Positions 28,080-46,685 of a stretch of DNA of 64,000 nucleotides are shown in pieces. How positions within the stretch are numbered: the stretch's first letter is position 1; each line of letters starts with the position of its first letter. The position numbers were made by a program, and so were the translations under genes. The notes under the pieces are model-generated. The model had not been told where the DNA came from. It made no database searches and was given only the letters and a program-made list of their open reading frames with translations. Location of the stretch: NCBI RefSeq assembly GCF_964212655.1, contig NZ_OZ156465.1, positions 3,348,001 through 3,412,000 on the forward strand, given 5' to 3'. This DNA comes from Candidatus Thiodiazotropha sp. LNASS1 (GTDB lineage: Bacteria; Pseudomonadota; Gammaproteobacteria; Chromatiales; Chromatiaceae).

Positions 28080-30305
28080 ATGCAGGAATCTGTGGCAAGA
28101 CGTATGAGATGGATTCTGGCAACGCTTATTTTACTTTCTCCCGTAATCACAACCGCTGCAATCTGGCAGGACATGGATACATCTGAACTGGCGGCAAAAG
28201 GTCTCGACCTGTCATCCGTTTACTATCGCCGACTGGGGGCGGACAGCTCCGCGTTGAGGCAACGGCTGCTGCAGGCGCCGTTGCAGGATACAAGTTCTTC
28301 CGGCATTGAACTTGAGCTGCCGCTGCCCTATGGATCGATGCAGCGCTACGCCGTTGAGGAGTCACCGGTGATGGCTGAATCGCTGGCTCACCGCTATCCG
28401 GAAATACGCACTTACAGGGTGAGGGGAGTGGACGATGCCGCCAGTAGCGGGCGCCTGGATCTGACACCGCATGGCTTTCATGCCATGCTTACAACGCCGG
28501 CAGGGACTGTGTATATCGATCCGGACGGGGAAGGTGGCTATCGGAGTTATTACAAGCGTGATTATGCGGCTGTACAAGGTGATCGATTATCTCCCTTGGT
28601 CTGTATGCATCGCGATGGTCAACCGGAGAGTGATCATTTGGCCACAGCGTTTTCGCAAACCCTGGCAAGCAGAACTGTCAGTGGCGCACATCGCCGGGTC
28701 TATCGCCTCGCCGTGGCGGCAACAGGTGAATACAGCGCTTTTTTTGGCGGCACTGTCAGTGCCGCCCTGGCGCAAATCGTCACCACGATCAATCGGGTGA
28801 ACCAGATCTATGGCCGTGACCTGGCCGTGCAGTTTCAACTGGTGGGGAATAACGACCGCATAATCTTTACCGATCCAGACTCGGATCCCTATACCCAGAC
28901 CGCTGCCGGTATCGGTTTGATGCTGATCGAGAATCAGCAGCAACTCGATTTCATGCTTGGCGCGGACAGCTATGACATCGGCATTCTGTTCGGCACGGTC
29001 GGTGGCGGATTGGCCAGCGTGGGTTCCCTATGCACAATCTACAAAGCTCAGGCATATACCGGTACGCCTATGCCGGATAGCGACGGCTTCTATATCGACT
29101 TTGTCGCTCATGAACTGGGCCATCAATTGAATGCAACGCACTCATTCAATGGCACTACGGCGAGTTGCGGTGGTGTCAACAGAGTGGCAAGTGCCGCCGT
29201 GGAACCGGGTAGTGGTTCAACCATCATGAGTTATGCCGGCATTTGTGCCGAGGAGAACCTGCAGGCCAATTCTGACGCCACCTTTCATGCCGTCAGCATT
29301 CAGCAGATGAACGAGTTTATCACCCATGGCGAAGGCAATCAGTGCGGTCAGTTGACAGTCACGGGAAACAGCGCCCCGAGTGTCGATGCAGGCCAGGAAG
29401 GCGATGACGGCAGTCTCAGCATACCTGCCGCAACACCTTTCATGCTGAATGGCATGGCAAGTGACGTGGACGGGGACAACCTCTCCTATCAATGGGACGG
29501 GATGGATGCGGGGGGTGTTGCCGGTGCAACGGATGCATCAACCATTGGTACCGATCTGCCCGACGGCAGCAATCCGTTGTTCAGATCATTTCTGCCTAAA
29601 CAAACTGCGGTGCGCTATTTCCCACGATTGAGTCAATTACTGACACGACAGGAGGATATTGGCGAGACCCTGCCTCAATCCGCTCGAACACTCAATTTCA
29701 GACTGACTGTGAGGGATGGTGAAAGTGGTGTCGCCAACGATGATATCACTATTCAGGTGGATGGCGATCAAGGACCCTTCAGGATAACCGGTGGGGATTT
29801 GAACCGTTCGTCTACCTATATGGGTGGTGGCTCGCATACCCTTGAATGGTCAACCGCGGGCACCGAGGCAAGCTGCCCAACCGTACATGTTTCACTCCTT
29901 AGTCTGAGTTCAGGCAATCCACCTGCAACATTCTGCAATATGCACGACAGCGGATTCGACCAGTTGTACCTGGGCGAGTTTTCCAATAGCGGTTCCGCCA
30001 ACATCGTACTGCCGAATGTCTCTGTTGAGTATGCCCGTGTCATGCTCAGTTGCTCGGATAATATATTCTTCGCACTCTCCGATGCCACGCTAAGCATTGC
30101 AAGTGCAGAGGCGGCCCTTGGTAATGACTGTCAGCCGTTGGACGGAGAAGATCTGGAACATGGTGTGATCTTCAACGATGCTGACGGAGCGGAAAAGTTT
30201 GATAGCCCTGGTGGGGGCGGCCAACTGTTCTGGATACTTTTTGTTCTGACCTTTGGCGCTGTCTATCATTCGGCTCACTCAACGAGCAAGCCAGGCCGGA
30301 CTTAG
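28080..30305 (+). CDS. Secreted zinc metalloprotease (reprolysin-like) with C-terminal membrane sorting tail
   Basis: A 741-residue exported protein (signal peptide ending near TTAA). After a propeptide-like region, the metzincin zinc site HELGHQLNATH (HExxHxxxxxH) lies near residue 343, with a Met-turn STIMSYAG further on, so a metzincin peptidase is clear. A PKD/cadherin-like segment (NSAPSVDAGQEG, ASDVDGDNLSYQWDG) follows. The C-terminus is GGGGQLFWILFVLTFGAVY plus a short polar tail, resembling a GlyGly-CTERM rhombosortase signal, although the closing basic cluster is weak. A GTG at 28077 is an alternative start. Substrate is unknown. Confidence 0.82.
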   Translation: MQESVARRMRWILATLILLSPVITTAAIWQDMDTSELAAKGLDLSSVYYRRLGADSSALRQRLLQAPLQDTSSSGIELELPLPYGSMQRYAVEESPVMAESLAHRYPEIRTYRVRGVDDAASSGRLDLTPHGFHAMLTTPAGTVYIDPDGEGGYRSYYKRDYAAVQGDRLSPLVCMHRDGQPESDHLATAFSQTLASRTVSGAHRRVYRLAVAATGEYSAFFGGTVSAALAQIVTTINRVNQIYGRDLAVQFQLVGNNDRIIFTDPDSDPYTQTAAGIGLMLIENQQQLDFMLGADSYDIGILFGTVGGGLASVGSLCTIYKAQAYTGTPMPDSDGFYIDFVAHELGHQLNATHSFNGTTASCGGVNRVASAAVEPGSGSTIMSYAGICAEENLQANSDATFHAVSIQQMNEFITHGEGNQCGQLTVTGNSAPSVDAGQEGDDGSLSIPAATPFMLNGMASDVDGDNLSYQWDGMDAGGVAGATDASTIGTDLPDGSNPLFRSFLPKQTAVRYFPRLSQLLTRQEDIGETLPQSARTLNFRLTVRDGESGVANDDITIQVDGDQGPFRITGGDLNRSSTYMGGGSHTLEWSTAGTEASCPTVHVSLLSLSSGNPPATFCNMHDSGFDQLYLGEFSNSGSANIVLPNVSVEYARVMLSCSDNIFFALSDATLSIASAEAALGNDCQPLDGEDLEHGVIFNDADGAEKFDSPGGGGQLFWILFVLTFGAVYHSAHSTSKPGRT

Positions 30306-30430
30306 TGGAATCCATTGAAGATTGCGGCTGTTTCCATCTTCCCCATAAGCATTGACTATAGATTCAGTTAAGTCTTGCCTGTTTTGTCAGATCGACTGTC
30401 GAGCACTCCTCATTTCAACCCTGCACTTTG

Positions 30431-30495
30431 TATAGTTGTCGCCTATGGTTTCGATCAGAATTTGGTCTTGGACAAGATAGATTGCTTGGTGAATA
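30431..30495 (+). promoter_or_regulatory. Thiocyanate-regulon promoter, copy A (porin)
   Basis: The LysR-type box is at 30431-30448 (ATAG-N7-CTAT core). After 19 nt comes TTGGAC at 30468-30473, then 16 nt and TGAATA at 30490-30495. The box centre lies about 62 bp before the expected start site, the normal place for a LysR recognition site. Flanking bases ATCAGAAT and GGTCTTGGACAA are shared with the other copies. The porin start is about 170 bp downstream. Confidence 0.75.
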
Positions 30496-30666
30496 GTTAA
30501 GCGCATGCGATGTCTGGGGTTGCCGGCGGAAAGTCAAAAGGAAATGTGTTTTCTCTTCCGATGCTCCATGGGAGCCTGCAAGTAGCTCCCTCCTTAACGG
30601 TGGCACACAGGTCGATGTTGCTTGTGGTTGCCAGCCACATCCAATCATAGTCAGAGGAGGAATTGC

Positions 30667-32130
30667 ATGTCTATTATCAAGCCTGCGTCAGGTCTATTTG
30701 CAGTCTCCATACTCATCTTTTCACAAGGCATTGGTGCGGTAGGATTGCCGGCTGTTTCAAATGTTCATCAAGCAAAGGTGTTGCCTGAAACCGGTGAACT
30801 GTCCAGTGCCATTACGACCGGTAAACCTGATGTATGGTTGCGTTTGCGTTACGAGGAGGTGGAGGACGACATTCCCGCCGGCTCTCCACTTGCCGGTACA
30901 GAAGATGCCGACCTGTCGAGCCTGCGGGCGGCGCTTGGCTATACCTCAGCCCGTTTCCACGGCTTCTGGGCGCGGCTGGAGTTGGAACTCAATAGGCGAC
31001 TGGGCAGCGATAGCGCACTAAACGTTGACGATGACCTAACCTTTCCCCCTGGCCCGGCGGGTTCGAGAATTGCCGAAGGTCATGCGCTGATACCGGATAA
31101 TAATTTCGAGGAGATCAACGAGGCCTTCATCGGTTGGCGCAGTGCAACCGGTGGTTGCCCGAATGCACCTGGCGCCTGCAATGGCCACACCTCATTTAAA
31201 CTGGGCCGGCAGTCGATCATTTACGATAATCACCGATGGGTGGGTAACATCGTATGGCGGCAAAATTTTCAGTCATTCGATGCATTTCGTTTTGACAACA
31301 GTTCAATCAACAACCTTACCTTTTCATATGCCTATGTTGATCGTGTAAACAGGCTGTTTGGCGATGACTCCCCGTTCAGGGAGTATGAGATGAATAACTC
31401 CCATCTCATAAATGTCGCGTATAAGTTGCCATTCGGAAAGTTGAGTGGATACGGTTATCTATTGGATTACGATGATAATTCGCGAACGCCTTTTCCTGAA
31501 GGTGTCGGTGTCGGACCCGGAATAACCAATTTCGACTCGGATACCTGGGGTTTGCGATTTACCGGGAAACATAGGCTACATGACAATTTAACCCTGTTGA
31601 CGGAACTTGAGTGGGCAAATCAGGACCCGAGTGGTGATGCAGCTTCTAATCTCGATGATAACGATTACACCAATATCGAAATAGGAGGCGTTTTCGATGT
31701 GGCGGGTAAGCCGGTGGTGTTAAAGGTTGGGCAAGAGGTGCTGGAAGGAAATGGAGTCAATGCCTTGCAGACACCCCTTGCAACAGTACACGCCTTCAAT
31801 GGTTGGACAGATAAATTTGTTGGCGCACCCGGAGGGTCGGCCACGCCGGCAGGGGGACTGGTGGATACCAGTGTCACCTTGGTCCTGAAAGGTTTGATGT
31901 CAAGCGTGATTGGTCCATCAAAGCTGGTTGTCCAATACCACAAATTTGAAGCTGATAATGTTATCGGCGGAGTTGACGATTATGGCGATGAATGGGGGGT
32001 GTTGTTTGCCAAACCCTTTGATAAAAAGTGGTTGGGTCTTATCAAGTTTGCCAGTTTTGAGGATGGCGGAGATGGTTTCAGCTTTGACACCGATAAGATT
32101 TGGTTGATGGGGCAATACCGCATGAAATAG
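30667..32130 (+). CDS. Outer-membrane porin, alginate-export-like beta-barrel
   Basis: A 487-residue protein; the ATG at 30667 is chosen because AGAGGAGG precedes it. A signal peptide runs to about GIGAVG. The mature part is a long beta-barrel with alternating aromatic strands (VWLRLRYEEVED, FHGFWARLELELNRRLG, HTSFKLGRQSIIYDNHRWVG) and ends with strand IWLMGQYRMK. The resemblance is to alginate-export/OprD-like porins with about 16-18 strands. Its promoter carries the same LysR box as the thiocyanate hydrolase operon, so I infer that it admits thiocyanate or a related small anion; the substrate is unproven. Confidence 0.78.
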   Translation: MSIIKPASGLFAVSILIFSQGIGAVGLPAVSNVHQAKVLPETGELSSAITTGKPDVWLRLRYEEVEDDIPAGSPLAGTEDADLSSLRAALGYTSARFHGFWARLELELNRRLGSDSALNVDDDLTFPPGPAGSRIAEGHALIPDNNFEEINEAFIGWRSATGGCPNAPGACNGHTSFKLGRQSIIYDNHRWVGNIVWRQNFQSFDAFRFDNSSINNLTFSYAYVDRVNRLFGDDSPFREYEMNNSHLINVAYKLPFGKLSGYGYLLDYDDNSRTPFPEGVGVGPGITNFDSDTWGLRFTGKHRLHDNLTLLTELEWANQDPSGDAASNLDDNDYTNIEIGGVFDVAGKPVVLKVGQEVLEGNGVNALQTPLATVHAFNGWTDKFVGAPGGSATPAGGLVDTSVTLVLKGLMSSVIGPSKLVVQYHKFEADNVIGGVDDYGDEWGVLFAKPFDKKWLGLIKFASFEDGGDGFSFDTDKIWLMGQYRMK

Positions 32131-32145
32131 ACAAAAGCGTTGTCA

Positions 32146-32172
32146 TCACCAACTGCTGGATGCAGTTGGTGA
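32146..32172 (+). terminator. Hairpin downstream of the porin gene
   Basis: A perfect 11-bp inverted repeat (TCACCAACTGC, 5-nt loop) begins 16 bp after the porin stop. No U-run follows, so it may act as a 3'-end stabiliser or a Rho-assisted end rather than a classical intrinsic terminator. The rest of 32131-32969 holds the copy B promoter, a short run of repeated CGCAAAT words near 32335-32385, and no convincing gene. Confidence 0.5.
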
Positions 32173-32718
32173 CGCAACCATTTCTGATGATGGATTTCTA
32201 TCGACGGTTTAGCGCCACCTTCGGTAGTTTCGCGGTCTTTGGCATAGTAAATGCAAATAATCTCCTGGTTATCCGCCATTCTCAGCTATCTGCCCTCACC
32301 CGACCTCTTCCTCAAGGTGGGTGTTGTAAGTGAAAACCGCAAATAGACGCAAATTTAATAAGTCCGCAAATGAAGGCAGGTTTGGCTTTTTTTGACGGTC
32401 CTGTATGGAGACCTTAGGTAAGGGTTTATGTTACACCTTATACATCTCACTATGGTCAGGTCACTGATTCAGTGGCTGGATACTGTGGGTAATCAGGGCT
32501 AAACGTTAGTGAAGCTGACCGCCCCCTGATTAATCCGCCATTTACAGTATGGAATTACCATTATTGTCAGAAATAGCTGACTGATATTCGACTGCAAAAA
32601 GGCATATCTATTTTTACCGCTTAAGCGCCGTTGGTGCATTTCTGTAACGGATTTTCGTGATGGTGTATTTCCGTGGGATGCCAATAATGACAATGACTTG
32701 CGTAATCATGAGGCTTTC

Positions 32719-32783
32719 TATAGCCAACTCCTATAGCGTTAATCAGATTTAGGTCTTGGACAAATAGTGATGCGTGGTAAATA
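32719..32783 (+). promoter_or_regulatory. Thiocyanate-regulon promoter, copy B (cbiM)
   Basis: LysR-type box at 32719-32736, TTGGAC at 32756-32761, TAAATA at 32778-32783, with the same 19-nt and 16-nt spacings as the other copies. Over about 77 bp it is roughly four-fifths identical to the scnB copy. cbiM starts about 180 bp downstream. Confidence 0.8.
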
Positions 32784-32969
32784 GTTTCATTTAATGGTAG
32801 CTGTCTAGACATTATGAAAGATAGCGTCAAACCATATCGGCGCATGGGAACGGTAATAATGACTAAGCGGCGATAACCTGAATTATTGAATGCGTATGGC
32901 AACGGGTATGGATGTTGCTAATAATCGTTTGACCAGTTGATCCACTAAGCATGAGGAGAGGGGGTACAG

Positions 32970-33650
32970 ATGCATATTGAACCAGGCGTTGTCGAAGGCG
33001 CAAAAATAGCACTTAGCGTTGTAACGGCCGCAGGCGCGATCGGATATGCGGCCAAACTTGCGTTGAGTACCGTTAAGCAGGATGGTATCACTACGATTGC
33101 TATTCGCAGTGTGATCACGACTCTGCTCGTCTTTTGCTTTTTTGAGGTATTGCCGCATTATCCGGTTGGGGTGTCTGAAGTTCACTTCATCCTTGGCGCA
33201 ACACTGTTTTTGATCTTTGGTGCAGGGCCTGCAGCGATAGGGTTGGCAACGGGACTGCTCATCCAAGGGCTTTTGCTGGCGCCGGCTGACTTGCCTCAAT
33301 ACGGTATGAATGTAACCTCTCTACTTGTACCGCTGTTGCTGGTTGATGCCTTGGCGCGTCGTCTGATCCCGGCAAAGACCGCCTATAAAGATGTCAAGTA
33401 TGGGCAGGCACTGGCTCTCTCAACCGCTTATCAGGGTGGTGTTATCGCCTGGGTGGCATTCTGGGCATTCTACGGTAACGGTTTCGGTGCCGAGAACCTG
33501 ATCCAGGTAGGGTCATTCAGTGTTGCATATTTGACGGTCATTGTAATAGAACCGCTGCTGGACCTTGCGATTCTTGCAACTGCAAAGTCACTGCATCAAC
33601 TCAAAGACAGCAAGCTATTTCACTCACGTCTCTATCGTGCAGCTGTATAA
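32970..33650 (+). CDS. cbiM: Stand-alone CbiM-type cobalt uptake permease
   Basis: A 226-residue membrane protein with about six helices. It begins MHIEPGVVEGAK; in the CbiM/NikM family the N-terminal Met-His pair loops into the membrane and coordinates Co2+ or Ni2+, so this start is meaningful. The PHYPVGVSEVHFILGATLFLIFG segment (partly shown) with its His is also family-like. CbiN, CbiQ and CbiO are not encoded nearby. The shared promoter with the cobalt-containing thiocyanate hydrolase points to cobalt supply. Nickel is the alternative metal. An ideal intrinsic terminator follows, so it is a single-gene unit. Confidence 0.85.
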   Translation: MHIEPGVVEGAKIALSVVTAAGAIGYAAKLALSTVKQDGITTIAIRSVITTLLVFCFFEVLPHYPVGVSEVHFILGATLFLIFGAGPAAIGLATGLLIQGLLLAPADLPQYGMNVTSLLVPLLLVDALARRLIPAKTAYKDVKYGQALALSTAYQGGVIAWVAFWAFYGNGFGAENLIQVGSFSVAYLTVIVIEPLLDLAILATAKSLHQLKDSKLFHSRLYRAAV

Positions 33651-33661
33651 CCTGTAGCAGT

Positions 33662-33693
33662 AAGAGGCCTCCTGACTGAGGCCTCTTATTTTT
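33662..33693 (+). terminator. Intrinsic terminator after cbiM
   Basis: A perfect 10-bp stem AAGAGGCCTC with a 6-nt loop (CTGACT) is followed by ATTTTT. It lies 11 bp after the cbiM stop. Confidence 0.9.
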
Positions 33694-33743
33694 GCGTGCC
33701 GGAAATCAACCTTGAGTAGTAATGTCAAGTCAGCTGTGTCGGG

Positions 33744-34577
33744 ATGAGAAACATGATGGCTGCCCGGGATCCCCACAGGTTTGTCAACGATCTTGGTGAC
33801 GAGGCGGTCGAGCGCCTTATAGCCCGTTTGGAAAGTCGGGCAAAGGATAGTGTTTTTACAAGTCTCATTGATAAATACTCATCGCAGTTGATACTTACTG
33901 ACCCTGCAAAGGTGTTGGAGGTTGGTTGTGGTACGGGGGCAATGATTCGGTCTTTCGTGCGCAGTAAAGACTTCAATGGTCATGCTGTCGGCGTTGATCA
34001 AAGCGGTAGCTTCATTAATGCTGCAAAATCATTTGCCCGCTATGAGCATCTTGAGAATAGGCTGCAATTTCAGATTGGCGATGCGCATAATCTTGATTTT
34101 CCATCCGCCAGCTTCGACACCGTTATTGCCAATACCCTGATAAGCCATGTTTCCGATCCTGCACGTGTGCTGGAAGAGATGGCGAGAGTAGTATGGCCTG
34201 GCGGCATAATCGCTGTTTTTGATGGCGACTACGCTTCGCTGACCTATGCATTTCCTGACCACGATTTCGGCCGGCAAATGGATAGTGCGCTGGCAACTGC
34301 TTCGTTCAACAACCCCAGAGTCATGCGTGACTTGCCGAGAATGCTGGATACATATGATCTTCAACTTGTTAGTGCTTGGGGCGATGCGGTGGTTGAGATT
34401 GGAGAGGGAAGCTATTTCAAATCTTTTGCTGAAACCTATGCGCCTTATGTAACGAGTTCAGGGTTGATGGCCGAAGACGATGTCGATAGCTGGTTGTCTG
34501 TACAGCGTGAAGCCATGGAGTCAGGGACATTCTTTGCGTCATGTAACTATTACACATATCTTTTACGTCGCGTATAA
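33744..34577 (+). CDS. Class I SAM-dependent methyltransferase
   Basis: A 277-residue methyltransferase. Motif I is VLEVGCGTGAMIRSF, motif II VGVDQSGSF, then GDAHNLDFPSASFDTVIAN and the post-motif III MARVVWPGGIIAVFD. It belongs to the UbiE/Methyltransf_11 type. The substrate cannot be read. It lies between two units of the thiocyanate regulon but has no box of its own, and the strong cbiM terminator separates it from the upstream promoter. A role on a sulfur or thiocyanate metabolite is speculative. The ATG at 33744 has a weak ribosome site; ATG codons at 33753 and 33756 are alternatives. Confidence 0.78.
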   Translation: MRNMMAARDPHRFVNDLGDEAVERLIARLESRAKDSVFTSLIDKYSSQLILTDPAKVLEVGCGTGAMIRSFVRSKDFNGHAVGVDQSGSFINAAKSFARYEHLENRLQFQIGDAHNLDFPSASFDTVIANTLISHVSDPARVLEEMARVVWPGGIIAVFDGDYASLTYAFPDHDFGRQMDSALATASFNNPRVMRDLPRMLDTYDLQLVSAWGDAVVEIGEGSYFKSFAETYAPYVTSSGLMAEDDVDSWLSVQREAMESGTFFASCNYYTYLLRRV

Positions 34578-34794
34578 GTTGCCACGACCGCATACTTTCT
34601 GCCGTTAATCATCACAAATCAATTGGTTATTCTTTGCTGCCTGACAGGTAATAGGCAGTGCCTTAGTCCTTGGTTGTCTTGTGGTCGACTGTAATAGGGA
34701 CATGAAAAATGATCAGATATATCTGACTGTCGTGAAGTATGTCTGAAATGGTTCCCTGCCAGGTAAGAACAAATGTCAAAACAGGAAATATACT

Positions 34795-34859
34795 ATAGGG
34801 AAAAACTATAGATTCTATATAAATTAGCTCTTTGACAAATAGAAGTATCAGGTAAAAAT
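34795..34859 (+). promoter_or_regulatory. Thiocyanate-regulon promoter, copy E (interrupted porin)
   Basis: The box at 34795-34812 keeps ATAG-N7-CTAT with an A-rich centre. TTTGAC follows at 34832-34837 and TAAAAA at 34854-34859, with identical 19- and 16-nt spacings. The surrounding 445-bp gap (34578-35022) also has a perfect 14-bp palindrome at 34713-34726 (TCAGATATATCTGA) and an inverted repeat TTCCTG-TAA-CAGGAA at 34945-34959 in the leader. Confidence 0.65.
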
Positions 34860-35022
34860 TATTGTTACGGGCTATCCGTTTCTCTGTTGATTCAAGATTG
34901 TCGGGGTCCGGCTCTCATAAGTAAATTAGCATGTTATGCGGTTGTTCCTGTAACAGGAATTGCGCACAAGACAGCATGAAACATGCAGAACAATTCAGAG
35001 AAGTCAGCAAAAATAAAAAAAT

Positions 35023-36420
35023 ATGAAGGTCAAAACTATACTATCCGCTTTTTTTCTGGTATCGGATTTTATAACAATATCTGTTTTTGCTGATGAAGTG
35101 CCGGGTGTGAATGGTTATGTGAGAGTCGGTATTATCGAAACAAAGGATCAGGCAGGTGAAAGTGCGAGAGGTTCGGCGCTGGGTGGCAAGCTGGGCTATA
35201 TCACGCTAGGGCCTGTTAACACTAATCCAATGCGCCCTGTTGTGCCTGAAAAAGCGCCAATCAAGGCGCACCCCAAGGGCACTTCCTTCGGGGCGCGAGG
35301 AGAGAGGTTTGGTTATTCCAAATGAACGACGAGCAACGCCGAGTGGCGCTTTTTTAGGCATACCCCAAGGGCACTTCCTTTGGGGCGCAACCCGAAGGGC
35401 TGGGGCTGTTTTCGCCCCCAGCGGCGTTATCATTCGCTCATGTAGAATAACTACACTACGCTCATTCTGCCTTGCTGGGCACAAAAACAGCCCCAGCAGG
35501 GCGTATTGGATTAGTGTTAACAGGCCCTAGATTGGCGTGGCCTGAGTGCTGGCCTATCCATATACACTACACAGGAACTGGCGGATAATGAAAATGGAGA
35601 TTTCTTTGCCACCGATAATAAAGGGTACACCCTGATAGGCGAAGCCTATGTAAAGGGTGCTTTGCACTATACGACACTCAAGTTGGGACGATTCGAGATC
35701 GATACGCCTCATGCGGATACCGATGACATAAGAATGGTACCGAATACATTTCAGGGTGCGGTGATCAGCAATGAGGATATTGTTGATACTGCAGTTTCTA
35801 TCGTCTTTCTGGATGAGAGGGCGGGTGTCGATGCGGATATACCGGAAAAATTTGAAGACATTAATGGTGACGACGGTTTATTTGCCTTAGGCATCGAGTA
35901 CTATGGAATCGATGATGCTGCATTGCAGGCATGGTTCTATAAAGGCAGAGATCTTGCAAGCCTGATCTATGTCGAAGGCATATATGAAACAGAGCAGGTT
36001 TCCATCGGCTTTCAGTTTGGCTCGCAATCGGATGATACGATGGATGATAGCGGGCCGGACGGTGAAGTCTATGGCGTAATGGCGAGTTACACTGTGGATG
36101 GCATTGTTTTGTCAGCTGCCTACAACGATGTCTCAGGCACTGTGATCGACGGTTTCGGCGGCGGTCCCTATTTTACATCCGCGGATGATCATACCATTGG
36201 TGAGGTTGAAGACCAGCAGGCGGTAACCTTGGGATTTGAATATGTCGGGATACAAGGATTAACCCTGGGGTTGATGTATGCGGATTTCGATAGCGGGTCA
36301 AATGAAACGGATTACTATGCCATCTATGAATCGGTTGAAGATCTTGCGTTTGAATTTATCTATACGGATCTGCATGAAGAGGGTCATTTCGTGCGCCTGA
36401 TGGGCAATTACTATTTTTAG
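35023..36420 (+). pseudogene. Outer-membrane porin gene interrupted by a MITE
   Basis: The first piece starts at the ATG at 35023 with a signal peptide (MKVKTILSAFF to VFADE) and mature N-terminus VNGYVRVGIIETKDQ, then runs into the inserted element and stops at 35325. The remaining frame resumes after 35530 and continues to 36420, ending in the strand FVRLMGNYYF. Deleting 35210-35530 (317-bp element plus one CTAG) joins GGKLGYITL to DWRGLSAGLSIYTTQ in frame and gives about 358 residues, the size of an OprD/Campylobacter-type porin. The copy E promoter puts it in the thiocyanate regulon. Internal starts (for example 35662) could only give a barrel fragment without a signal peptide. Confidence 0.85.
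35210..35526. mobile_element. 317-bp MITE-like element inserted in a porin gene
   Basis: Terminal inverted repeats of 30 bp lie at 35210-35239 and 35497-35526 with one mismatch; each begins GGCCTGTTAACACTAATCC read inwards. The tetranucleotide CTAG flanks both ends (35206-35209 and 35527-35530) as a target duplication. No transposase is encoded. Inside are two copies of a CCCCAAGGGCACTTCCTT word (near 35271 and 35363) and GC-rich palindromic stretches. CTAG is the target of IS5-group elements; a TA duplication inside CTAG, as for IS630/mariner types, is the alternative. Confidence 0.88.
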
Positions 36421-36488
36421 CGGTTTACAAGCAGAGGTTTTCAGTAATCAGATTGCATGCTGGATTAGGGTTTTCTCGCTTTGATAAA

Positions 36489-36504
36489 GCACTCGTACGA
36501 GTGC
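36489..36504. promoter_or_regulatory. Perfect 16-bp palindrome before the Fe-S protein gene
   Basis: GCACTCGTACGAGTGC is a perfect palindrome that ends 13 bp before the proposed ATG at 36518. It could be an operator or a short stem covering the ribosome site, because no good Shine-Dalgarno sequence is visible here. No matching copy was found elsewhere in the window by eye. Confidence 0.45.
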
Positions 36505-36517
36505 ATTGAATTGTCCT

Positions 36518-37819
36518 ATGCAAACTAAATTTACAGACCAGCAGTTATCAGTGCCTGCCATAGCCAGCTCGGATGTGGAATTGCGGGCCTGCCTGCAGTG
36601 TGACTACTGCACACCAAATTGTCCAACATTCAAATTGCTGGGTGATGAATACGACAGTTCGCGTGGACGTGTCTATCTGATAAAGGGGCTATTGGAGAAT
36701 GAGGATAAGCCTGACCAGAGGACGGTTGACTATATTGATCGTTGCCTTTCCTGTCTTGCCTGTATGTCCACATGCCCGTCAAGCGTCCACTATCAGCATC
36801 TTATGGATCATGCAAGGGAGGTGATCGAACGGAAACATCACCGCAAGCCTGTGGACCGGCTTTCACGCTGGTTGTTGGCAAAGATACTACCCTATCCGCA
36901 ACGCTTTCGTCTGGCGATGCGGGCGGCAAGAACGATCAAGCCTGTAGCCTCGGTGCTGCCCGGCCCGATTCGTGGCATGGTTGATTACACCCCAGACCGG
37001 CTTCCGCCACCGAGCCCGAATGATCAACCGCAAGTGTTTCCGGCACAAGGTGAGTGTATTCGACGTGTAGCATTGTTGAACGGTTGTGCGCAACAGGCTT
37101 TGAATACGGATATAAATGACGCGACTATTCGTATTCTTCGCAGGCACGGTTGCGAAGTTGTGATACCACGTGGTGCCGGCTGCTGCGGGGCATTGACGCA
37201 CCATATGGGTAAGACGAATGAGAGTCTTGCGGCAGCTGCAAAAAACATACAGGCATGGATGAAAGAGCTGGAAGGCGACGGGCTGGATGCAATAGTCATT
37301 AACACAAGTGGTTGCGGTACAGTTATCAAGGATTATGGTTTCATGTTTCGAAACGATCCTTTGGCGCAGCAGGCGGCAACTATCGCAGGTTTGGCAAAGG
37401 ATGTAACTGAAGTGCTTTCAGAGATCGAATTAAACTATCTAATCAAACCTGGTCTGCGCATTTCCTATCATGCGACGTGCTCTCTGCAATTTGGTCAAAG
37501 AATAAGATTCACGCCAAGAAAGCTATTGAAATCGGCAGGTTTTACTGTACTTGAGCCAAGGGACTCACATACCTGCTGCGGTGCGGCCGGTACCTACAAT
37601 TTATTGCAACCGGAGATCTCCAGGCAGTTGAAAGAGAGCAAGCTAAAGGAGTTGGAAACAGGATCCCCTGCAGCGATCGCAGCTGGAAATGTCGGCTGTA
37701 TGGTGCACCTGGCATCAAGTACAGGAATTCCTGTTGTACATACGGTGGAACTGCTCGACTGGGTGACAGGAGGGCCAGTGCCCCGATCCTTGAATGATAT
37801 CTGTAGCGAAGCAGGTTAA
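36518..37819 (+). CDS. GlcF-like (Fe-S)-binding oxidoreductase subunit
   Basis: About 433 residues. Two N-terminal 4Fe-4S motifs are present: CLQCDYCTPNCP and CLSCLACMSTCP. Two C-terminal CCG domains follow, with GAGCCGALTHHMG and SHTCCGAAGTYNL. This is the plan of GlcF, the iron-sulfur subunit of glycolate oxidase, which passes electrons from a flavin subunit to quinone. GlcD and GlcE are not nearby, so the donor is unknown. The ATG at 36518 is preferred to the TTG at 36506, which overlaps the upstream palindrome region. It is 98 bp downstream of the broken porin gene and convergent with the CynR-like regulator. Confidence 0.82.
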   Translation: MQTKFTDQQLSVPAIASSDVELRACLQCDYCTPNCPTFKLLGDEYDSSRGRVYLIKGLLENEDKPDQRTVDYIDRCLSCLACMSTCPSSVHYQHLMDHAREVIERKHHRKPVDRLSRWLLAKILPYPQRFRLAMRAARTIKPVASVLPGPIRGMVDYTPDRLPPPSPNDQPQVFPAQGECIRRVALLNGCAQQALNTDINDATIRILRRHGCEVVIPRGAGCCGALTHHMGKTNESLAAAAKNIQAWMKELEGDGLDAIVINTSGCGTVIKDYGFMFRNDPLAQQAATIAGLAKDVTEVLSEIELNYLIKPGLRISYHATCSLQFGQRIRFTPRKLLKSAGFTVLEPRDSHTCCGAAGTYNLLQPEISRQLKESKLKELETGSPAAIAAGNVGCMVHLASSTGIPVVHTVELLDWVTGGPVPRSLNDICSEAG

Positions 37820-37908
37820 GCAGCTGCTTTGGTTTATCAATCAGGAAGTTGTTCCGGGCATCGAGGATTGGCAATCAGTTTGCACAGTGCGTGTATATGC
37901 GATGCTCG

Positions 37909-38877
37909 CTAATTGTGGCTGTTAGGTGTGCATACTTCTGACATCGGGCAAGGGCCGGTCCGTTTTACTGGCGTATCGTGACACCCTTCCACGCCCCATT
38001 CCGCAGCCAGTCCCTTGAACGCCAGAGAAGCAGGACTCTTGTACGAATCCTTACGGCTGATAAGCGTGATTGTGTGGTGCGGGAGTTCTGGAATCAGCAT
38101 AACCGGAAATATCTCATTTTGTTGGCAGGCGATCGTGTTGGGGAGTATGGTCGCGAGCCGGCCTAATCGTAGAACCTCGATAATCGTACTTAGCGAGTTG
38201 GTCTCAATTGCAATCGAAGGTTTGATATCGTGTTCCAGGCAATACAGGTCGATGTGCCTGCGTAATGCAAAATCGCTATTGAGGAGTGCCAGCGGTTCCT
38301 GTTCAAGGGTGTGTTGATCCAAAGGAGTTTCTTGTCCGGCGTATTGGTGGGTCGATCCAACCGCCAAGTTGAGTGGTTCTATGAACAGATGTTGAGTCTC
38401 TATGTATTCATAATTGGCGGCTACGGTAAGTGTATTCGTGAATGCTATGCCGATATCGATATTACCAGCCAGAACGCCGCTCTCAATATCATCTTGCGGC
38501 ATCTCATAAGTGCCTACGGAAATACCGGGATAACGTTTGTTGAATCGATCTATCAGTGGCGCTGCAAGATAATCCGTGATCGGTGTCATGCCAAGGCTCA
38601 GAGATCCGCGGCTCAGGTCCTGCAGCTCCTGAATGGCCCGCTTCCCGGCATCCAGCTCACCTAGCGCTCGACGGGCATAACTGATGTAAACCTCACCCGC
38701 ATCAGTAAGGTGAACGGTACGACCTGTACGATCCAGCAGCTGTGTTTCGAGAGACTCCTCCAGTTGCTTGATTTGTTGCGACAGTGTGGGTTGAGAAACA
38801 AACAGTGTTTCTGCCGCACGGGTAAAACTGTGATGTTCTGCAACCGCCAAAAGATAGCGTAGCGAACGAGGGCACAT
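37909..38877 (-). CDS. CynR-like LysR-type transcriptional regulator
   Basis: 322 residues from the ATG at 38877. The N-terminal winged helix reads RSLRYLLAVAEHHSFTRAAETLF and VSQPTLSQQIKQLEESL (split), then LLDRTGRTVHLTDAGE. Together with ELDAGKRAIQELQDLSRGSLSLG this is closely like CynR, the activator of the cyanate operon. The C-terminal co-inducer domain covers residues 90-295. A TTG at 38898 would add seven residues and is less likely. It is divergent from scnB, and a copy of the regulon box lies 13-30 bp upstream of its start, which suggests autoregulation. I infer that it senses thiocyanate, cyanate or a product. Confidence 0.88.
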   Translation of the reverse strand: MCPRSLRYLLAVAEHHSFTRAAETLFVSQPTLSQQIKQLEESLETQLLDRTGRTVHLTDAGEVYISYARRALGELDAGKRAIQELQDLSRGSLSLGMTPITDYLAAPLIDRFNKRYPGISVGTYEMPQDDIESGVLAGNIDIGIAFTNTLTVAANYEYIETQHLFIEPLNLAVGSTHQYAGQETPLDQHTLEQEPLALLNSDFALRRHIDLYCLEHDIKPSIAIETNSLSTIIEVLRLGRLATILPNTIACQQNEIFPVMLIPELPHHTITLISRKDSYKSPASLAFKGLAAEWGVEGCHDTPVKRTGPCPMSEVCTPNSHN

Positions 38878-38889
38878 GATATTTCTATC

Positions 38890-38907
38890 CATAGCCAACC
38901 CCTATGG
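38890..38907 (-). promoter_or_regulatory. LysR box at the regulator's own start (copy D)
   Basis: CATAGCCAACCCCTATGG keeps the ATAG-N7-CTAT core of the other four copies but lacks the downstream TTGGAC/TAAATA part in either direction. Its position, just before the regulator start codon, suits negative autoregulation, which is known for E. coli CynR. Confidence 0.65.
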
Positions 38908-39060
38908 AAGTTATAAAAAAAGCGGATTTTGCTAATCACTCCATGATGAGTCCTAGTGTAGACCAATTTTAAATTTGTGGTGGGGATCAGCGAATAAATC
39001 TTTGCCTTGCGAAATTAAATTACTTTTTCCATGTAAATCAACGGGGCAATTCGTGATGAC

Positions 39061-39125
39061 CATAGCCATCGCCTATAGAGCTAATCAGAATTAGGTCTTG
39101 GACAATTATTGTGACCTGGTAAATA
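39061..39125 (+). promoter_or_regulatory. Thiocyanate-regulon promoter, copy C (scnB operon)
   Basis: Box at 39061-39078, TTGGAC at 39098-39103, TAAATA at 39120-39125, with the 19- and 16-nt spacings seen in copies A, B and E. The leader to scnB is about 190 nt long. The 443-bp intergenic region 38878-39320 holds this promoter and copy D and no gene. Confidence 0.82.
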
Positions 39126-39320
39126 GTTTGACTTAACACGATTAGAGAATCGCGCACTTCGTGAATTATTAAGAACGACTTAAGTAAGGTGAATTTCCGC
39201 TGTGAAACAGATCATTCATCGATTGCTTAAGTATCAAAACAGTATATGCGAAATATGTAATTAAACATTAGGTAATAAATACAAGCTTTTAAAACCTAAT
39301 CATAAGGAGGTCACGCGACC

Positions 39321-39752
39321 ATGTCATCAGCCATCAGACAAAAAGTGATGAAACATCTGGAGATCGTCAAACAACTCCAGCCGTCTCTACACCAGGAGAC
39401 TCATGCGCCCTCTCCTGATCAGGTCGATAACGAACACTATCGGGCCTATACACGTATGTCGCATGATGTCGGTGGTGAACCGGACGTACCAATCACATGG
39501 GAAGAGAAAGAGGAAGAGGTATGGGAGCACAACACCTTCGTAACATGTGAGGTGTTGGCTTGGCGGGGTATTTGGAATGCCGAGGAGAGGCGCCGCAGGC
39601 AGAATGTGGATGTGGGACAGACAATGTATCTGGGTTTGCCTTATTACGGTCGGTGGTTGTTGACCGCAGCAAGAATATTGGTCGACAAGCAATACATAAC
39701 GCTCACCGAATTGTCCGACAAGATTGATGAGGTCAAAAAACGCTATGAGTAA
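39321..39752 (+). CDS. scnB: Thiocyanate hydrolase beta subunit
   Basis: A 143-residue protein preceded by AAGGAGG. It corresponds to the N-terminal half of nitrile hydratase beta subunits: ENEHYRAYTRMSHDVGGEPD-like text (here VDNEHYRAYTRMSHDVGG), WEHNTFVTCEVLAWRGIWNAEERRR (partly shown), LPYYGRWLLTAARILVD and TELSDKIDEV. In Thiobacillus thioparus the beta subunit of thiocyanate hydrolase has this split architecture (about 157 residues). The enzyme converts thiocyanate and water to carbonyl sulfide and ammonia. Its last codons overlap scnA (ATGAGTAA). Confidence 0.9.
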   Translation: MSSAIRQKVMKHLEIVKQLQPSLHQETHAPSPDQVDNEHYRAYTRMSHDVGGEPDVPITWEEKEEEVWEHNTFVTCEVLAWRGIWNAEERRRRQNVDVGQTMYLGLPYYGRWLLTAARILVDKQYITLTELSDKIDEVKKRYE

Positions 39753-40113
39753 ACCACACTACGATCGAGAGCATCACGTCAAGAAGGCTACGGGTATCGG
39801 TGATCCCCAATGTTTTAAAGGCGAAGCCGGCGCGCCAAAGTTCAAGGTTGGCGACAAGGTAAGGATTCGGGATCTGCCCGATATATTTTATACCCGTACC
39901 CAGGTCTATACCCGCGGTGTACCTGCAACTGTCGCCGAACTGGTGTATGAAAGTCCCGCCCCGGAGGATGAAGCGTGGGACAACACTGACAAGGTGGTTT
40001 GGTTCTACAGTCTGGTGTTCAAGCAAAAGGATCTGTGGCCGGACTATCCGGATGCATTTGCAAATGACACTGTAGAAACCGAATTGCCTGAACGCTGGCT
40101 TGAGCCGCTGTAG
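39745..40113 (+). CDS. scnA: Thiocyanate hydrolase alpha subunit
   Basis: 122 residues from the ATG at 39745, which overlaps the scnB stop by eight bases. It matches the C-terminal SH3-like half of nitrile hydratase beta: PKFKVGDKVRIRDLPDIFYTRT, GVPATVAELVYE and VVWFYSLVFKQKDLWPD (some shown partly). The T. thioparus alpha subunit is 126 residues. Overlap with scnB ensures equal synthesis of the two halves. Confidence 0.9.
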   Translation: MSKPHYDREHHVKKATGIGDPQCFKGEAGAPKFKVGDKVRIRDLPDIFYTRTQVYTRGVPATVAELVYESPAPEDEAWDNTDKVVWFYSLVFKQKDLWPDYPDAFANDTVETELPERWLEPL

Positions 40114-40174
40114 CCGTGCCTGCCGATTGAGCACAAGACGTTTGTTTGGATAAAGAATCAGAGAGGATAGACAA

Positions 40175-40870
40175 ATGGCGGAGAAACATAAACCTGCACC
40201 AATGGTTGATGAGGTCAGTGAATTTGAGGTGCTCGAAATCGCCGTTCGCGAACTCGCTATCGAAAAAGGCCTCTTCACCGCTGAGGACCATCAGCGTTGG
40301 ACTGAATATATGCATACACTCGGGCCACTTCCGGCGGCACGCCTGGTTGCCAAGGCTTGGTTGGATCCGGAATTCAAGAAGCTGGCTGTAGAGGATGGGG
40401 TCAAGGCCAGCCTTGAAGTCGGAATTGACTGGGTCAACAGCATGCCGACCCATTTCGGCACACCCAGTGACTACTGCAATCTGCGTGTACTCGAAGACAC
40501 GCCAAAGTTAAAACATGTGGTCGTATGTACGCTCTGTTCATGCTATCCACGTCCCATCCTCGGGCAATCGCCGGAGTGGTACCGGACACCGAACTATCGC
40601 CGACGCCTGGTGCGCTGGCCGCGACAGGTGCTCGCGGAGTTTGGGCTTCAAGTGCCCGAAGACGTAGAGGTTCGGGTAGAGGACTCGAATCAGAAATCAC
40701 GATTTATCGTGTTGCCCGTACGTCCCGAGGGAACCGAAGGGTGGAGCGAGGACCAGTTGGCAGAGATCGTGACACGGGACTGCCTGATCGGTGTGGCTGT
40801 GCCGAAGCCCGGCAAGACAGCCAATGATCCGCGACCTGTGCGTCCGGCCGTCAATCCATACCACCACTAG
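40175..40870 (+). CDS. scnC: Thiocyanate hydrolase gamma subunit (cobalt-binding catalytic subunit)
   Basis: 231 residues, homologous to nitrile hydratase alpha subunits. The metal claw VCTLCSCYPRP gives Cys118, Cys121 and Cys123; the Thr between the first two Cys is typical of cobalt rather than iron enzymes, and two of the Cys are normally oxidised to sulfinic and sulfenic acids. WYRTPNYRRRLVRWPRQVL and a conserved Arg follow. It hydrolyses thiocyanate to carbonyl sulfide and ammonia in the cytoplasm. Nitrile hydratase itself is less likely because the beta chain is split exactly as in thiocyanate hydrolase. GAGAGGATAG precedes the ATG. Confidence 0.92.
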   Translation: MAEKHKPAPMVDEVSEFEVLEIAVRELAIEKGLFTAEDHQRWTEYMHTLGPLPAARLVAKAWLDPEFKKLAVEDGVKASLEVGIDWVNSMPTHFGTPSDYCNLRVLEDTPKLKHVVVCTLCSCYPRPILGQSPEWYRTPNYRRRLVRWPRQVLAEFGLQVPEDVEVRVEDSNQKSRFIVLPVRPEGTEGWSEDQLAEIVTRDCLIGVAVPKPGKTANDPRPVRPAVNPYHH

Positions 40871-40878
40871 GAAGTCCC

Positions 40879-41334
40879 ATGGCAGAGATCAATCCAAAAT
40901 ATTTCGAACTCGACAAAGAGATGCGCGACCGCAATCTGGATGAGTCGACGCCTGTTTCACTGCTGGAAGATGTCAAAGGCAAGGGGCGGGTCTGGGACGA
41001 TCTGTGTGAGCAGTATGGTGTGGACAATCCCGATCCTCCATGGCGGATCACCCTGGAAGCCACCTGCGATATGCTTGCCGGTGGTTATTGGGAAACCTTC
41101 AATGTCTGCAAGCCCAAGGAGGAACGCAATCCGGAGCAGGAACAGGAACACCTCGACGCCGTTGAAAGACGTTGGGAAGAGGATCAACTGGTCAACAAAT
41201 ACTATGACGAAGTGCCTTTCCCGGAAAGACAGTTGCTGGCGCTGGCGCATACGATGATCCGGCGCGGACTGTTTAATGAGGAAGAGTTGGCGCGCCGCAT
41301 GGAAGAGATCGATCGACGTTTGAACAGCGCCTGA
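40879..41334 (+). CDS. P15K-like thiocyanate hydrolase maturation protein
   Basis: A 151-residue protein, paralogous to the nitrile hydratase beta N-terminal domain: PPWRITLEATCDMLAGGYW, EERNPEQEQEHLDAVERRWEED (partly shown), VPFPERQLLALAHTMIRRGLF and EELARRMEEIDR. In T. thioparus the P15K protein encoded next to the hydrolase genes is a cobalt-insertion chaperone for the gamma subunit; this gene has the same place (eight bases after scnC). I infer the same job. It resembles scnB in pattern but has lost the ordinary beta termini. Confidence 0.83.
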   Translation: MAEINPKYFELDKEMRDRNLDESTPVSLLEDVKGKGRVWDDLCEQYGVDNPDPPWRITLEATCDMLAGGYWETFNVCKPKEERNPEQEQEHLDAVERRWEEDQLVNKYYDEVPFPERQLLALAHTMIRRGLFNEEELARRMEEIDRRLNSA

Positions 41335-41353
41335 TCGTGGAGATGCCGCTTTG

Positions 41354-41415
41354 CAGTCGAGCGACTGTTTCGCTCGATTGTAGTTCACCCGTTCGACACA
41401 GAGGTGAAACGGGTG
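41354..41415 (+). promoter_or_regulatory. Tandem and mutually exclusive hairpins between the scn genes and the ABC importer
   Basis: A first stem of about 11 bp (one G-U pair) spans 41354-41380 with loop CTGTT. A second region can fold two ways: CACCCGTT (41386-41393) with AACGGGTG (41408-41415), or TTCACC (41384-41389) with GGTGAA (41403-41408). There is no U-run. The structures may stabilise the scn mRNA or set the level of read-through into the importer genes, for which I see no regulon box. Confidence 0.5.
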
Positions 41416-41562
41416 GGCTGGAGACAGCATCCAAACGCAACAGTCAATTAAACCATCGGGGTGGCGAGGAGAGATCGATGCAGATCCGCTTGCTGTTTGG
41501 AGTGTGCATGGCCCCGCTGCATATGCAGCAACTATCAACACTTGACACAGAGGATAGATTGA

Positions 41563-42390
41563 ATGTCTATACGCGGAGTCCGCATTAAGATTGAAGACCT
41601 TAGCCATCGCTATACTTCAAAAAGCCCGATCACATTCGACAAGGTCAATCTGGAAGCGAAGCATGGTGAGATCATTGTCATTATCGGGCGTTCCGGTTGC
41701 GGTAAATCGACCTTGTTGCATATTCTTGCAGGGTTGTTGAAACCGACGGATGGCTCTGTTCGTCTTGACGATACCTTGGTGACATCGCCATCGCCGCAAT
41801 GGGTCATGATGTTCCAGGCGCCCCATCTTTTTCCCTGGATGAAGGTGTCGCAAAATGTGGGCATCGGCCTGCACTTTGCGGGTTGGGATGAGCCCAGGAT
41901 GCGTGAAAGGGTTGACGATGCACTCAGCCTTGTCGATCTTCAGGACTATGCCGATAACAACGTGCAGGACCTGTCGGGTGGTCAGCAGCAACGTGTGGCG
42001 CTGGCGCGCTCACTGGTTATGGAGCCCGAACTGTTGCTTCTGGATGAACCCTTCTCGGCGCTCGACGCCTTTACCCGCGCATCTCTGCAACATGATGTTC
42101 GATCGATCGCAAAACGCCTCGGCTTCAATGTGGTGATCGTGACCCACGATATCGACGAGGCGGTCCTGATGGCGGATCGGGCACTGATCATGGCGGGCTC
42201 TCCCGGCAAGATCTACGACGAGCTCGAAGTCAATCTCCCCGATCCACGTGAGCGGCACGACCCGAATGTGCAGGCAATGCGGACACGCCTGATGGAGGCC
42301 TTCAAACAAGCCGCTAATGAGTACCCAAGCGCTTCCGGCAAGGATGCTGGTGACGAATCAAGTCCACACAGCGTCACGCAGCATGCCTGA
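41563..42390 (+). CDS. ABC importer ATPase (nitrate/taurine/sulfonate type)
   Basis: A 275-residue ATPase with Walker A (GRSGCGKST), Q-loop FQAPHLFPWM, signature LSGGQQQRVALARSL, Walker B LLLLDEPFSALD and His switch VTHDIDEA. It is closest to the SsuB/TauB/NrtD group. A 40-residue tail follows the core. It forms one importer with the binding protein and two permeases downstream. Context makes thiocyanate or cyanate the likely substrate; nitrate or sulfonate cannot be excluded. Confidence 0.88.
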   Translation: MSIRGVRIKIEDLSHRYTSKSPITFDKVNLEAKHGEIIVIIGRSGCGKSTLLHILAGLLKPTDGSVRLDDTLVTSPSPQWVMMFQAPHLFPWMKVSQNVGIGLHFAGWDEPRMRERVDDALSLVDLQDYADNNVQDLSGGQQQRVALARSLVMEPELLLLDEPFSALDAFTRASLQHDVRSIAKRLGFNVVIVTHDIDEAVLMADRALIMAGSPGKIYDELEVNLPDPRERHDPNVQAMRTRLMEAFKQAANEYPSASGKDAGDESSPHSVTQHA

Positions 42391-42437
42391 CCCTGCATAA
42401 GTCGGAATATCCGATTACCTAACGGAGGATATCGAAG

Positions 42438-43730: not shown

Positions 43731-44557
43731 GTGAAGATGCCGCATCTTTCAAGGTGGGCGAATCCCGACCGTACCGCGTCCTGAAATCATCAGGGCGCGG
43801 CTTATACAACTTCTTTGGTGGGTTGGCGATCCTGTTCGTCTTCTGGTGGATTGGCGGTTATTTCATATCCATCAATCCAACCACCGAACACTTCGCGGCA
43901 TTCGGGCCGATTCCCACTTTTAAGGCATTTCCCGAATTATGGTCCTCCGGCACGATTCAGAGTGCGATAGCCGCAAGTGGATATCGTTTGGGTTTGGGCC
44001 TGCTGATTGCGATAGTAATTGGTGTGCCGATCGGAATTCTGATGGGCCGAAGCAAGCGCTTCCGCGAAATAAGCAATTCACCGTTTCAGCTGTTGCGCAT
44101 GATCAGTCCGTTGGCTTGGATGCCGCTTGCGGTCATTGTTTTTGCAACCTGGAATCAATCGATCATTTTTCTGATTGCAATTGCATCGGTCTGGCCAGTG
44201 GCCTTTGCCACCGCCGCAGGTCTGGCGAAAATCGATCCGGCCTGGTTCAAAGTGGCGCGCAATCTGGGCGCTACGCCCATACACATGATGACCAAAATCA
44301 TTCTGCCGGCCATCAGTTTCGATGTGTTTACTGGTATCCGGCTGGCGCTGGGTGTGGCGTGGATTGTATTGGTGCCGGCGGAATATCTGGGAGTCACCTC
44401 CGGTCTCGGCTACTCAATAGAAGACGCCAGGGAAACATTGTCATACCACCACCTTACAGCCATCGTGCTGGTGATCGGTGCTCTCGGTTACATCCTCGAC
44501 AGTACCTGTGTGTTACTGATCAAACATTTCAGTTGGCACCGTGGAGATGAATCGTGA
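43727..44557 (+). CDS. ABC importer permease 1
   Basis: A 276-residue permease with six predicted helices and the cytoplasmic EAA-like loop LGATPIHMMTKIILPA. Start is GTG at 43727, overlapping the binding-protein stop (GTGA). It has the core FQLLRMISPLAWMPLAVIVFATW of the nitrate/taurine/sulfonate permease group. It is a close paralogue of the next gene. Confidence 0.88.
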   Translation: MSEDAASFKVGESRPYRVLKSSGRGLYNFFGGLAILFVFWWIGGYFISINPTTEHFAAFGPIPTFKAFPELWSSGTIQSAIAASGYRLGLGLLIAIVIGVPIGILMGRSKRFREISNSPFQLLRMISPLAWMPLAVIVFATWNQSIIFLIAIASVWPVAFATAAGLAKIDPAWFKVARNLGATPIHMMTKIILPAISFDVFTGIRLALGVAWIVLVPAEYLGVTSGLGYSIEDARETLSYHHLTAIVLVIGALGYILDSTCVLLIKHFSWHRGDES

Positions 44558-44615
44558 GCCATCAAAGCGAGGAGATAAAAAAAGCGTGTTCACCCGTTGG
44601 AGAGGTTTTTAAGCA

Positions 44616-45464: not shown

Positions 45465-45552
45465 CATCTCGTAGTCTATGACGCGATAACAGCAACCTGA
45501 AAGGCTTGGTATCAAGCATATGTTGTGTGCTGGCGGATGCGAGGTAAATGTG

Positions 45553-45822: not shown

Positions 45823-45900
45823 ACACCAAAGAGATGAATGTGGCAGGCATATTGTTTGGTTTTGCAGTGACAATGCATTAGAGAGAGAGGCGACAACTTC

Positions 45901-46293: not shown

Positions 46294-46335
46294 TTCGATA
46301 GCGGCTCAAACTATTTCAGCAAGAGGATATTGTGA

Positions 46336-46653: not shown

Positions 46654-46685
46654 GATCTCCTGTAATAGTGGATTAGGAGAGTGCA

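Follow-up and report, generated by a model that had tools for sequence, protein, structure and literature searches.

The window analysed here, a stretch of 64,000 nucleotides from the complete 4.75-Mb genome of Candidatus Thiodiazotropha sp. LNASS1, carries a thiocyanate hydrolase (scn) gene cluster, a neighbouring gene for a CynR-type LysR regulator and four promoters which share one extended sequence element. The genes between 30.4 and 48.3 kb follow each other in the order given below, with the regulator encoded on the opposite strand and some labels assigned by eye. Coordinates are those of the window; related loci and genomes are cited with our own numbers (L and G, respectively).

30667-32130, plus strand: outer-membrane channel, "porin 1"; the Alginate_exp match is weak (23 bits, cut-off 25.2) and porin is a label by eye
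32970-33650, plus strand: CbiM-type cobalt permease component (PF01891, 63.1 bits, cut-off 23.1)
33744-34577, plus strand: class I methyltransferase (Pfam and locus comparison)
35023-36420, plus strand: OprD/Opr-family porin gene, interrupted; relatives of 382 residues in L044 and L045
35206-35530, no strand assigned: insertion in this porin gene resembling a miniature inverted-repeat transposable element (MITE), 325 bp, terminal inverted repeats of 62 nt, 81% complementary
36506-37819, plus strand: GlcF-like Fe-S/CCG-domain protein (NF008434, 409.4 bits, cut-off 333)
37909-38892, minus strand: CynR-type LysR regulator, ATG at 38892-38890 (NF008416, 370.1 bits, cut-off 277)
39321-39752, plus strand: thiocyanate hydrolase subunit resembling the N-terminal part of the nitrile hydratase (NHase) beta subunit (PF21006), here named scnB
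39745-40113, plus strand: thiocyanate hydrolase subunit resembling the C-terminal part of NHase beta (PF02211), here named scnA; the ATG was picked by eye, the listed open reading frame begins at TTG 39724
40175-40870, plus strand: scnC, thiocyanate hydrolase gamma subunit with CTLCSC motif (TIGR03887, 393.1 bits, cut-off 291.45)
40879-41334, plus strand: small protein at the position of the published P15K activator; no Pfam or NCBIfam family match, homologue in 78 of 80 related loci
41563-45464, plus strand: ABC transporter consisting of ATPase, NMT1-type binding protein (PF13379) and two permeases; ATPase and permeases were named by eye from open reading frames and homology to the Thiobacillus thioparus cluster (L077)
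45901-48275, plus strand: DsrE-like protein (Pfam match), presumed sulfide:quinone-reductase-like oxidoreductase and presumed DUF1641-like protein, the last without a Pfam family match; homologues in L077

The encoded hydrolase appears to be of the cobalt type: its gamma subunit scores above the TIGR03887 cut-off, two separate beta-like subunits are present, and the metal motif C118-T-L-C121-S-C123 was invariant in the ten sequences compared. Counterparts of the scn locus were found in records of Candidatus Thiodiazotropha and of lucinid symbionts; here and below, "related loci" means the 80 best-ranking ones among 135 relatives detected. An identical scnC gamma subunit is common to L039 (Ca. 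T. endolucinida) and L040 (symbiont of Ctena orbiculata).

Inspection of the DNA upstream of these genes revealed the following sites, where bit scores refer to the weight matrix described below.

30432-30446, plus strand: box of promoter 1 (IR1), ATAGTTGTCGCCTAT, before porin 1; 68.3 bits
30454-30468, plus strand: second, degenerate palindrome of promoter 1 (IR2), ATCAGAATTTGGTCT, conserved columns 23-37
30469-30497, plus strand: promoter 1, -35 TGGACA, 17 bp, -10 AATAGT (sigma-70 scan, alignment)
32720-32734, plus strand: box of promoter 2, ATAGCCAACTCCTAT, before cbiM; 73.0 bits
32742-32785, plus strand: promoter 2, IR2 32742-32756, -35 32757-32762, -10 32780-32785 (conserved columns, sigma-70 scan)
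34795-34809, plus strand: box of promoter 3, ATAGGGAAAAACTAT, a divergent version of the element, upstream of the interrupted porin gene and the GlcF-like gene; 35.6 bits
34817-34860, plus strand: promoter 3, IR2 34817-34831, -35 TTGACA 34832-34837, -10 34855-34860
38891-38905, minus strand: predicted operator box, ATAGGGGTTGGCTAT, overlapping the regulator start codon
39062-39076, plus strand: box of promoter 4, ATAGCCATCGCCTAT, before the scn operon; 79.0 bits
39084-39127, plus strand: promoter 4, IR2 39084-39098, -35 39099-39104, -10 39122-39127 (conserved columns, sigma-70 scan)

All five boxes match ATAG-N7-CTAT exactly. A first-pass annotation made from the sequence alone had described four promoters of shared architecture and a fifth box at the LysR start, and both proposals were borne out; of the positions given for the promoters, 34795 was exact whereas 30431, 32719 and 39061 were one base early. 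In promoters 1, 2 and 4 the box is followed after 7 nt by IR2 ATCAGAATTNGGTCT (in promoter 2 one A is replaced by T), TGGACA, 17 bp and AATAGT. Promoter 3, thought to be identical in architecture, does contain box and element but is divergent and degenerate, with IR2 ATATAAATTAGCTCT, -35 TTGACA and -10 AAAATT. The degenerate IR2 is located 22 bp downstream of IR1. In a sigma-70 scan, promoters 1, 2 and 4 came out with these same -35/-10 pairs, and promoter 3 with a variant of 16 bp. The hexamers read previously, TTGGAC-N16-TAAATA, are indeed present, but TGGACA-N17-AATAGT is closer to the sigma-70 consensus and coincides with the conserved columns 38-43 and 61-66. TTGG follows the box at 21 nt and not, as first stated, at exactly 19 nt: within the 80 related loci, 88 of 270 box orientations have TTGG at +21, an offset of 15 ranks second (n = 12), and 11 of 13 listed offset-15 sites (window included) also have TTGG at +21.

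The window contains eight matches to ATAG-N7-CTAT compared to 0.48 expected. Those at 14008, 21016 and 35635 were set aside as chance occurrences because they lack the rest of the element, with scores of -46.6, -41.4 and -52.1 bits on the plus strand and -37.7, -20.6 and -8.5 bits on the other, as against +35.6 to +79.0 bits for the four promoters. A search of the whole genome, which the first-pass annotation had recommended as a check, yielded at three mismatches exactly four sites, namely these promoters, and none for the reversed pattern; their similarity is therefore not due to chance. One could still imagine that the promoters, which share one strand and a stretch of less than 9 kb, are paralogues of recent origin or merely alike in being AT-rich, without common regulation, the more so as promoter-like sites are not enriched overall (21 found, shuffled mean 20.4). 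When four pairs of promoters were compared, 41-55 of 66 bases were identical within positions 1-66, whereas the 60-bp flanks had 13-22 of 60 in common, which argues against recent duplication. As the same element also recurs with the same partner genes in other genera, and as the cross-clade test described next opposes it, we regard this explanation as hardly credible.

A profile derived from 87 distinct exact elements of the window and the 80 loci showed conservation of the box (columns 1-15), IR2 (23-37), the -35 hexamer (38-43) and a -10 hexamer [CA]ATAGT (61-66), and weaker conservation outside. The main weight matrix, which was trained on sites from the same loci that it scanned, found 164 sites of at least 15 bits in the window and the 80 loci and none of at least 8 bits in reversed sequence. 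A fairer test was a cross-clade matrix built from 18 elements of the window and L039-L046 only; it found 93 sites of at least 15 bits in 43 of the 72 other loci, again with none in reversed sequence. Of the 77 scnB genes that could be tested, 66 have the element upstream, Thiobacillus included (three loci were dropped for having no ScnB or less than 350 bp upstream). L051 carries a site of 24.4 bits before scnB. The element is real and far wider in distribution than the window.

Among 369 genomes of the class, scnC above the cut-off was found in ten. Eight of these ten carry the strict element, compared to none of the 359 others (Fisher 5.7e-15), and these ten genomes are also precisely those with a protein above the CynR cut-off, in a tally that scored just six candidates per genome. 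As to the two genomes missed by the strict search, G311 has a one-mismatch site near scn, and in G042 the three-mismatch search found no site near scn. The elements are conserved, nearly confined to the cluster, and associated with both the hydrolase and the regulator.

The regulator combines a LysR helix-turn-helix (PF00126) with a substrate domain (PF03466) and is 45% identical to E. coli CynR over 292 residues, in agreement with the CynR-like nature assumed in the first-pass annotation. The OxyR consensus also contains ATAG-N7-CTAT. Binding of the boxes by another LysR-type protein such as OxyR is nevertheless very improbable, although the half-sites are shared and the regulator does match the OxyR model: its 122.8 bits are far under the OxyR cut-off of 329, the genomes in which the CynR model exceeds its cut-off are precisely those with scn, and the strict element is absent from all 359 genomes without scnC over the cut-off. 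For E. coli CynR, palindromes at -66, -44 and -34 are reported, with footprinting by others cited (PMC5002191). The features of such an operator were found here as well, i.e. 15-bp palindromes (ATAG-N7-CTAT, ATAA-n7-TTAT in E. coli), the 22-bp spacing of IR1 and IR2, equal to that between -66 and -44, and an IR1 near -65 with respect to a predicted start. The best match of our element in the E. coli cyn region falls into the cynR-cynT intergenic region, at the reported site R1 ATAAGTAAA (PMC5002191). The systems differ in extent: E. coli CynR serves one divergent cyanate operon, whereas several units are found here (hydrolase, cobalt uptake, outer-membrane channel and Fe-S protein), and here the regulator start codon overlaps a box.

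Because element, hydrolase and CynR model co-occur and the spacing matches that of E. coli CynR, the LysR protein of CynR type is very probably the regulator of a thiocyanate regulon. With high confidence we propose that this neighbouring protein has its operators in the four promoters and in the box at its own gene, and would switch them as one programme. A regulator dimer would bind IR1, the strong one of the two palindromes, whose centre lies about 64 bp upstream of the predicted transcription start; with inducer, a second dimer would occupy IR2, 22 bp downstream and adjoining the -35 hexamer, and recruit RNA polymerase. Thiocyanate hydrolase, its transporter, the sulfide-handling genes, the cobalt permease and the outer-membrane channel would thereby be switched on together, promoter 3 would add the GlcF-like Fe-S protein, and the permease would supply the metal site of the enzyme. 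From sequence comparison we infer binding, activation and autorepression as well as the metal carried.

The fifth box is built into the regulator gene. The regulator strand reads ATAG-N7-CTATG, in which the ATG consists of the end of the last half-site and the following G. The first half-site contains a TAG that is a stop codon in the same frame, which leaves translation no start other than one within the box or downstream of it. The start codon lies inside the box in 65 of 71 LysR rows if one mismatch is tolerated among the remaining six half-site bases, and 45 of these rows are exact; the rows comprise the window and the 80 loci, with one L048 gene counted twice and matches below 35% identity or with less than 40 bp upstream dropped. 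An opposing element is present in 53 of the 71 rows, with scnB, cbiM, hupE-like or other genes behind it. In E. coli, expression of cynR is repressed by CynR itself, independently of cyanate (PMC5002191), and the overlap of box and start codon suggests that the regulator here acts likewise; the box would then limit its expression. That the C-rich centre of the box exists as the ribosome-binding site of the regulator was rejected as the main cause, as boxes away from the regulator share much of this centre.

Genes were counted as lying behind an element when they were the nearest recognised gene 30-700 bp downstream, so that unrecognised genes may intervene. Behind the 164 sites we found ScnB 75 times (67 loci), CbiM 26, GlcF-like proteins 22 and porin-1-type channels 11 times, followed by HupE/UreJ (5), CynS (4), CbtA (3), formate/nitrite-type transporters (3), Opr porins (2) and single others (4), with no recognised gene behind nine sites. 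Porin 1 homologues thus also sit behind the element in other loci. This comparison, covering many genera, supports the combined regulon of enzyme, cobalt permease and outer-membrane channel under a CynR-like regulator that the first-pass annotation had suggested.

Homologues of cobalt/nickel transporters, counted from 25% identity upwards, occur in 59 of the 80 loci (CbtA 27, CbiM 26, HupE/UreJ 6), never two families in one locus; Pfam backs all three families in the members scanned. In 33 cases the element is directly upstream of the transporter gene, 18 lie downstream of scnC on the same strand and eight elsewhere in the locus. This distribution suggests that cobalt supply belongs to the regulon. 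The transporters presumably carry cobalt, and thiocyanate hydrolase is described as a cobalt-containing enzyme (PMC5744179, PMC6504805). In the window, the methyltransferase gene is probably co-transcribed with cbiM.

Cobalt uptake is often controlled by cobalamin or metal riboswitches. Such a switch acting on the permease, with an incidental promoter element, might fit the long predicted leaders, but a search of the window from 30000 to 46500 gave no Rfam match up to E = 0.1, and this explanation is very unlikely.

Several observations weigh against the proposed regulon. Promoter 3 is degenerate and the first gene behind it is broken. In the window, the promoter opposing the regulator at 38891 (plus strand) is vestigial (-1.6 bits), so a regulator divergent from a target promoter with a shared operator was not found there. 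Of the 77 testable scn loci, 11 have no element, and seven of these nonetheless contain a LysR gene (L059, L075, L092, L103, L109, L111 and L114); in L102 and the mycobacterial L116-L118 neither an element before scnB nor a LysR gene was found in the locus. The match in the E. coli cyn region is weak by its score alone, -6.2 bits compared to a mean shuffle maximum of -25.9 (sd 5.0) and a largest value of -6.3 in 60 shuffles, although position and 22-bp spacing agree with the CynR sites. The cobalt permease is a solitary CbiM, for which the NCBIfam CbiM models score far under their cut-offs and which has neither CbiQ nor CbiO adjoining it in the window; no cobalt transporter homologue was found in 21 of the 80 loci, some being short contigs. 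In the genome tally, the E. coli control was detected by the CynR search but under the cut-off, even though K-12 has cynR; with six candidates per genome, CynR genes may therefore have been missed. Finally, a three-mismatch search of the nine other scn genomes gave 19 sites, 16 of which are on contigs with scn or the regulator, and three on contigs without either.

The inducer is probably thiocyanate. This hydrolase type yields carbonyl sulfide (COS) and ammonia, not cyanate (PMC5328954), and the sole cyanase gene found in the genome, cynS (G000:C1:3000048-3000470, L130), lies outside the cluster at a distance of about 0.38 Mb and has no element; both points favour thiocyanate over cyanate. 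The same regulon and regulator could alternatively respond to cyanate as E. coli CynR does, the thiocyanate genes having been joined to a cyanate switch. The 45% identity to CynR and the equal operator spacing would fit this alternative, and as 50 of 80 loci contain cynS, which at four elements is the closest recognised gene downstream, cyanate may be the inducer. In view of the remote, element-free cynS and the products of the hydrolase, we consider this rather doubtful, and thiocyanate is preferred.

The first-pass annotation placed the promoters before a porin, a cobalt permease, a second porin and the hydrolase. These genes are present, but the second porin is interrupted at 35206-35530 by the MITE-like element, of which at least 28 near-full-length matches, itself included, were found in the genome (40 of 161 candidates scored). 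Two further genes had been overlooked: a methyltransferase gene following cbiM and, downstream of promoter 3, the gene for the GlcF-like Fe-S protein. The GlcF-like gene is likely the target of promoter 3. An Opr-type porin was not found in L039, L041 and L042, where the GlcF-like gene begins 254, 188 and 81 bp after the element, respectively; for this reason promoter 3 may be kept for the GlcF-like gene. The gene recurs as a neighbour of the element in other loci as well, being the nearest recognised gene in 22 of them. In L073, L076 and L080 a formate/nitrite-family transporter gene stands behind the element and no ABC transporter gene was recognised in the locus; perhaps this transporter replaces the uptake route there.

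A conserved scn operon has reportedly been described by Kantor et al. 2015. The scnABC clusters of Thiobacillus thioparus DSM 505 and Thioalkalivibrio thiocyanodenitrificans were described by Berben et al. 2017 and resemble the present locus in combining scn with genes for an ABC transporter, a DsrE-like protein, sulfide:quinone reductase, cyanase, a methylase and a cobalt transporter subunit; a figure legend notes differing cobalt uptake systems (PMC5328954). The cluster with its cobalt transporter had hence been published, though without its regulation, and no published regulator or operator was found. LysR, CynR and promoter do not occur as terms in that article (counts of 0), and its section 11 mentions neither an operator nor a porin or a GlcF-like gene as part of the scn cluster (PMC5328954). 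A described scn regulator or operator was likewise absent from the literature searched, which covered papers outside subscription, and from a search on thiocyanate in Thiodiazotropha; one paper, on Mycobacterium smegmatis, contains both "thiocyanate hydrolase" and "LysR" as terms (PMC4617892). The present analysis adds a candidate regulator, a predicted operator and a gene list for scn; the gene cluster itself was already known. Clusters for thiocyanate dehydrogenase, the enzyme of the cyanate pathway, are similar in that the enzyme is clustered with genes for its metal; they differ in enzyme, metal (copper) and a putative sigma-54-linked regulator (PMC5328954, PMC6504805).

Enzyme and probable metal supply would be placed under one operator, with cobalt transporters exchanged between lineages. 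We tentatively favour the view that a CynR-family regulator became a thiocyanate sensor in beta- and gammaproteobacterial sulfur oxidisers and wired the hydrolase to cobalt and outer-membrane entry, the cobalt slot being filled by CbiM, HupE/UreJ or CbtA depending on the lineage and the operator-built start codon forming a compact lock for autoregulation. Thiocyanate hydrolase clusters are important in the cleaning of mine waste water, and a specific regulator, operator and gene list can now be tested in cultivated Thiobacillus or Thiohalophilus. The element could also mark the thiocyanate pathway in genomes.

Individual sites in the other scn genomes deserve mention. An off-cluster element in a same-genus relative (G350 C27:53949, 46.5 bits) precedes two proteins (L147:1501-2818) without Pfam or NCBIfam match. 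Another off-cluster site (G299 C185:7155, 29.4 bits) lies before an open reading frame resembling an ATP synthase subunit by eye, and the third is G042 C39:6277. The site G290 C71:4215 (37.0 bits) is located on an scn contig.

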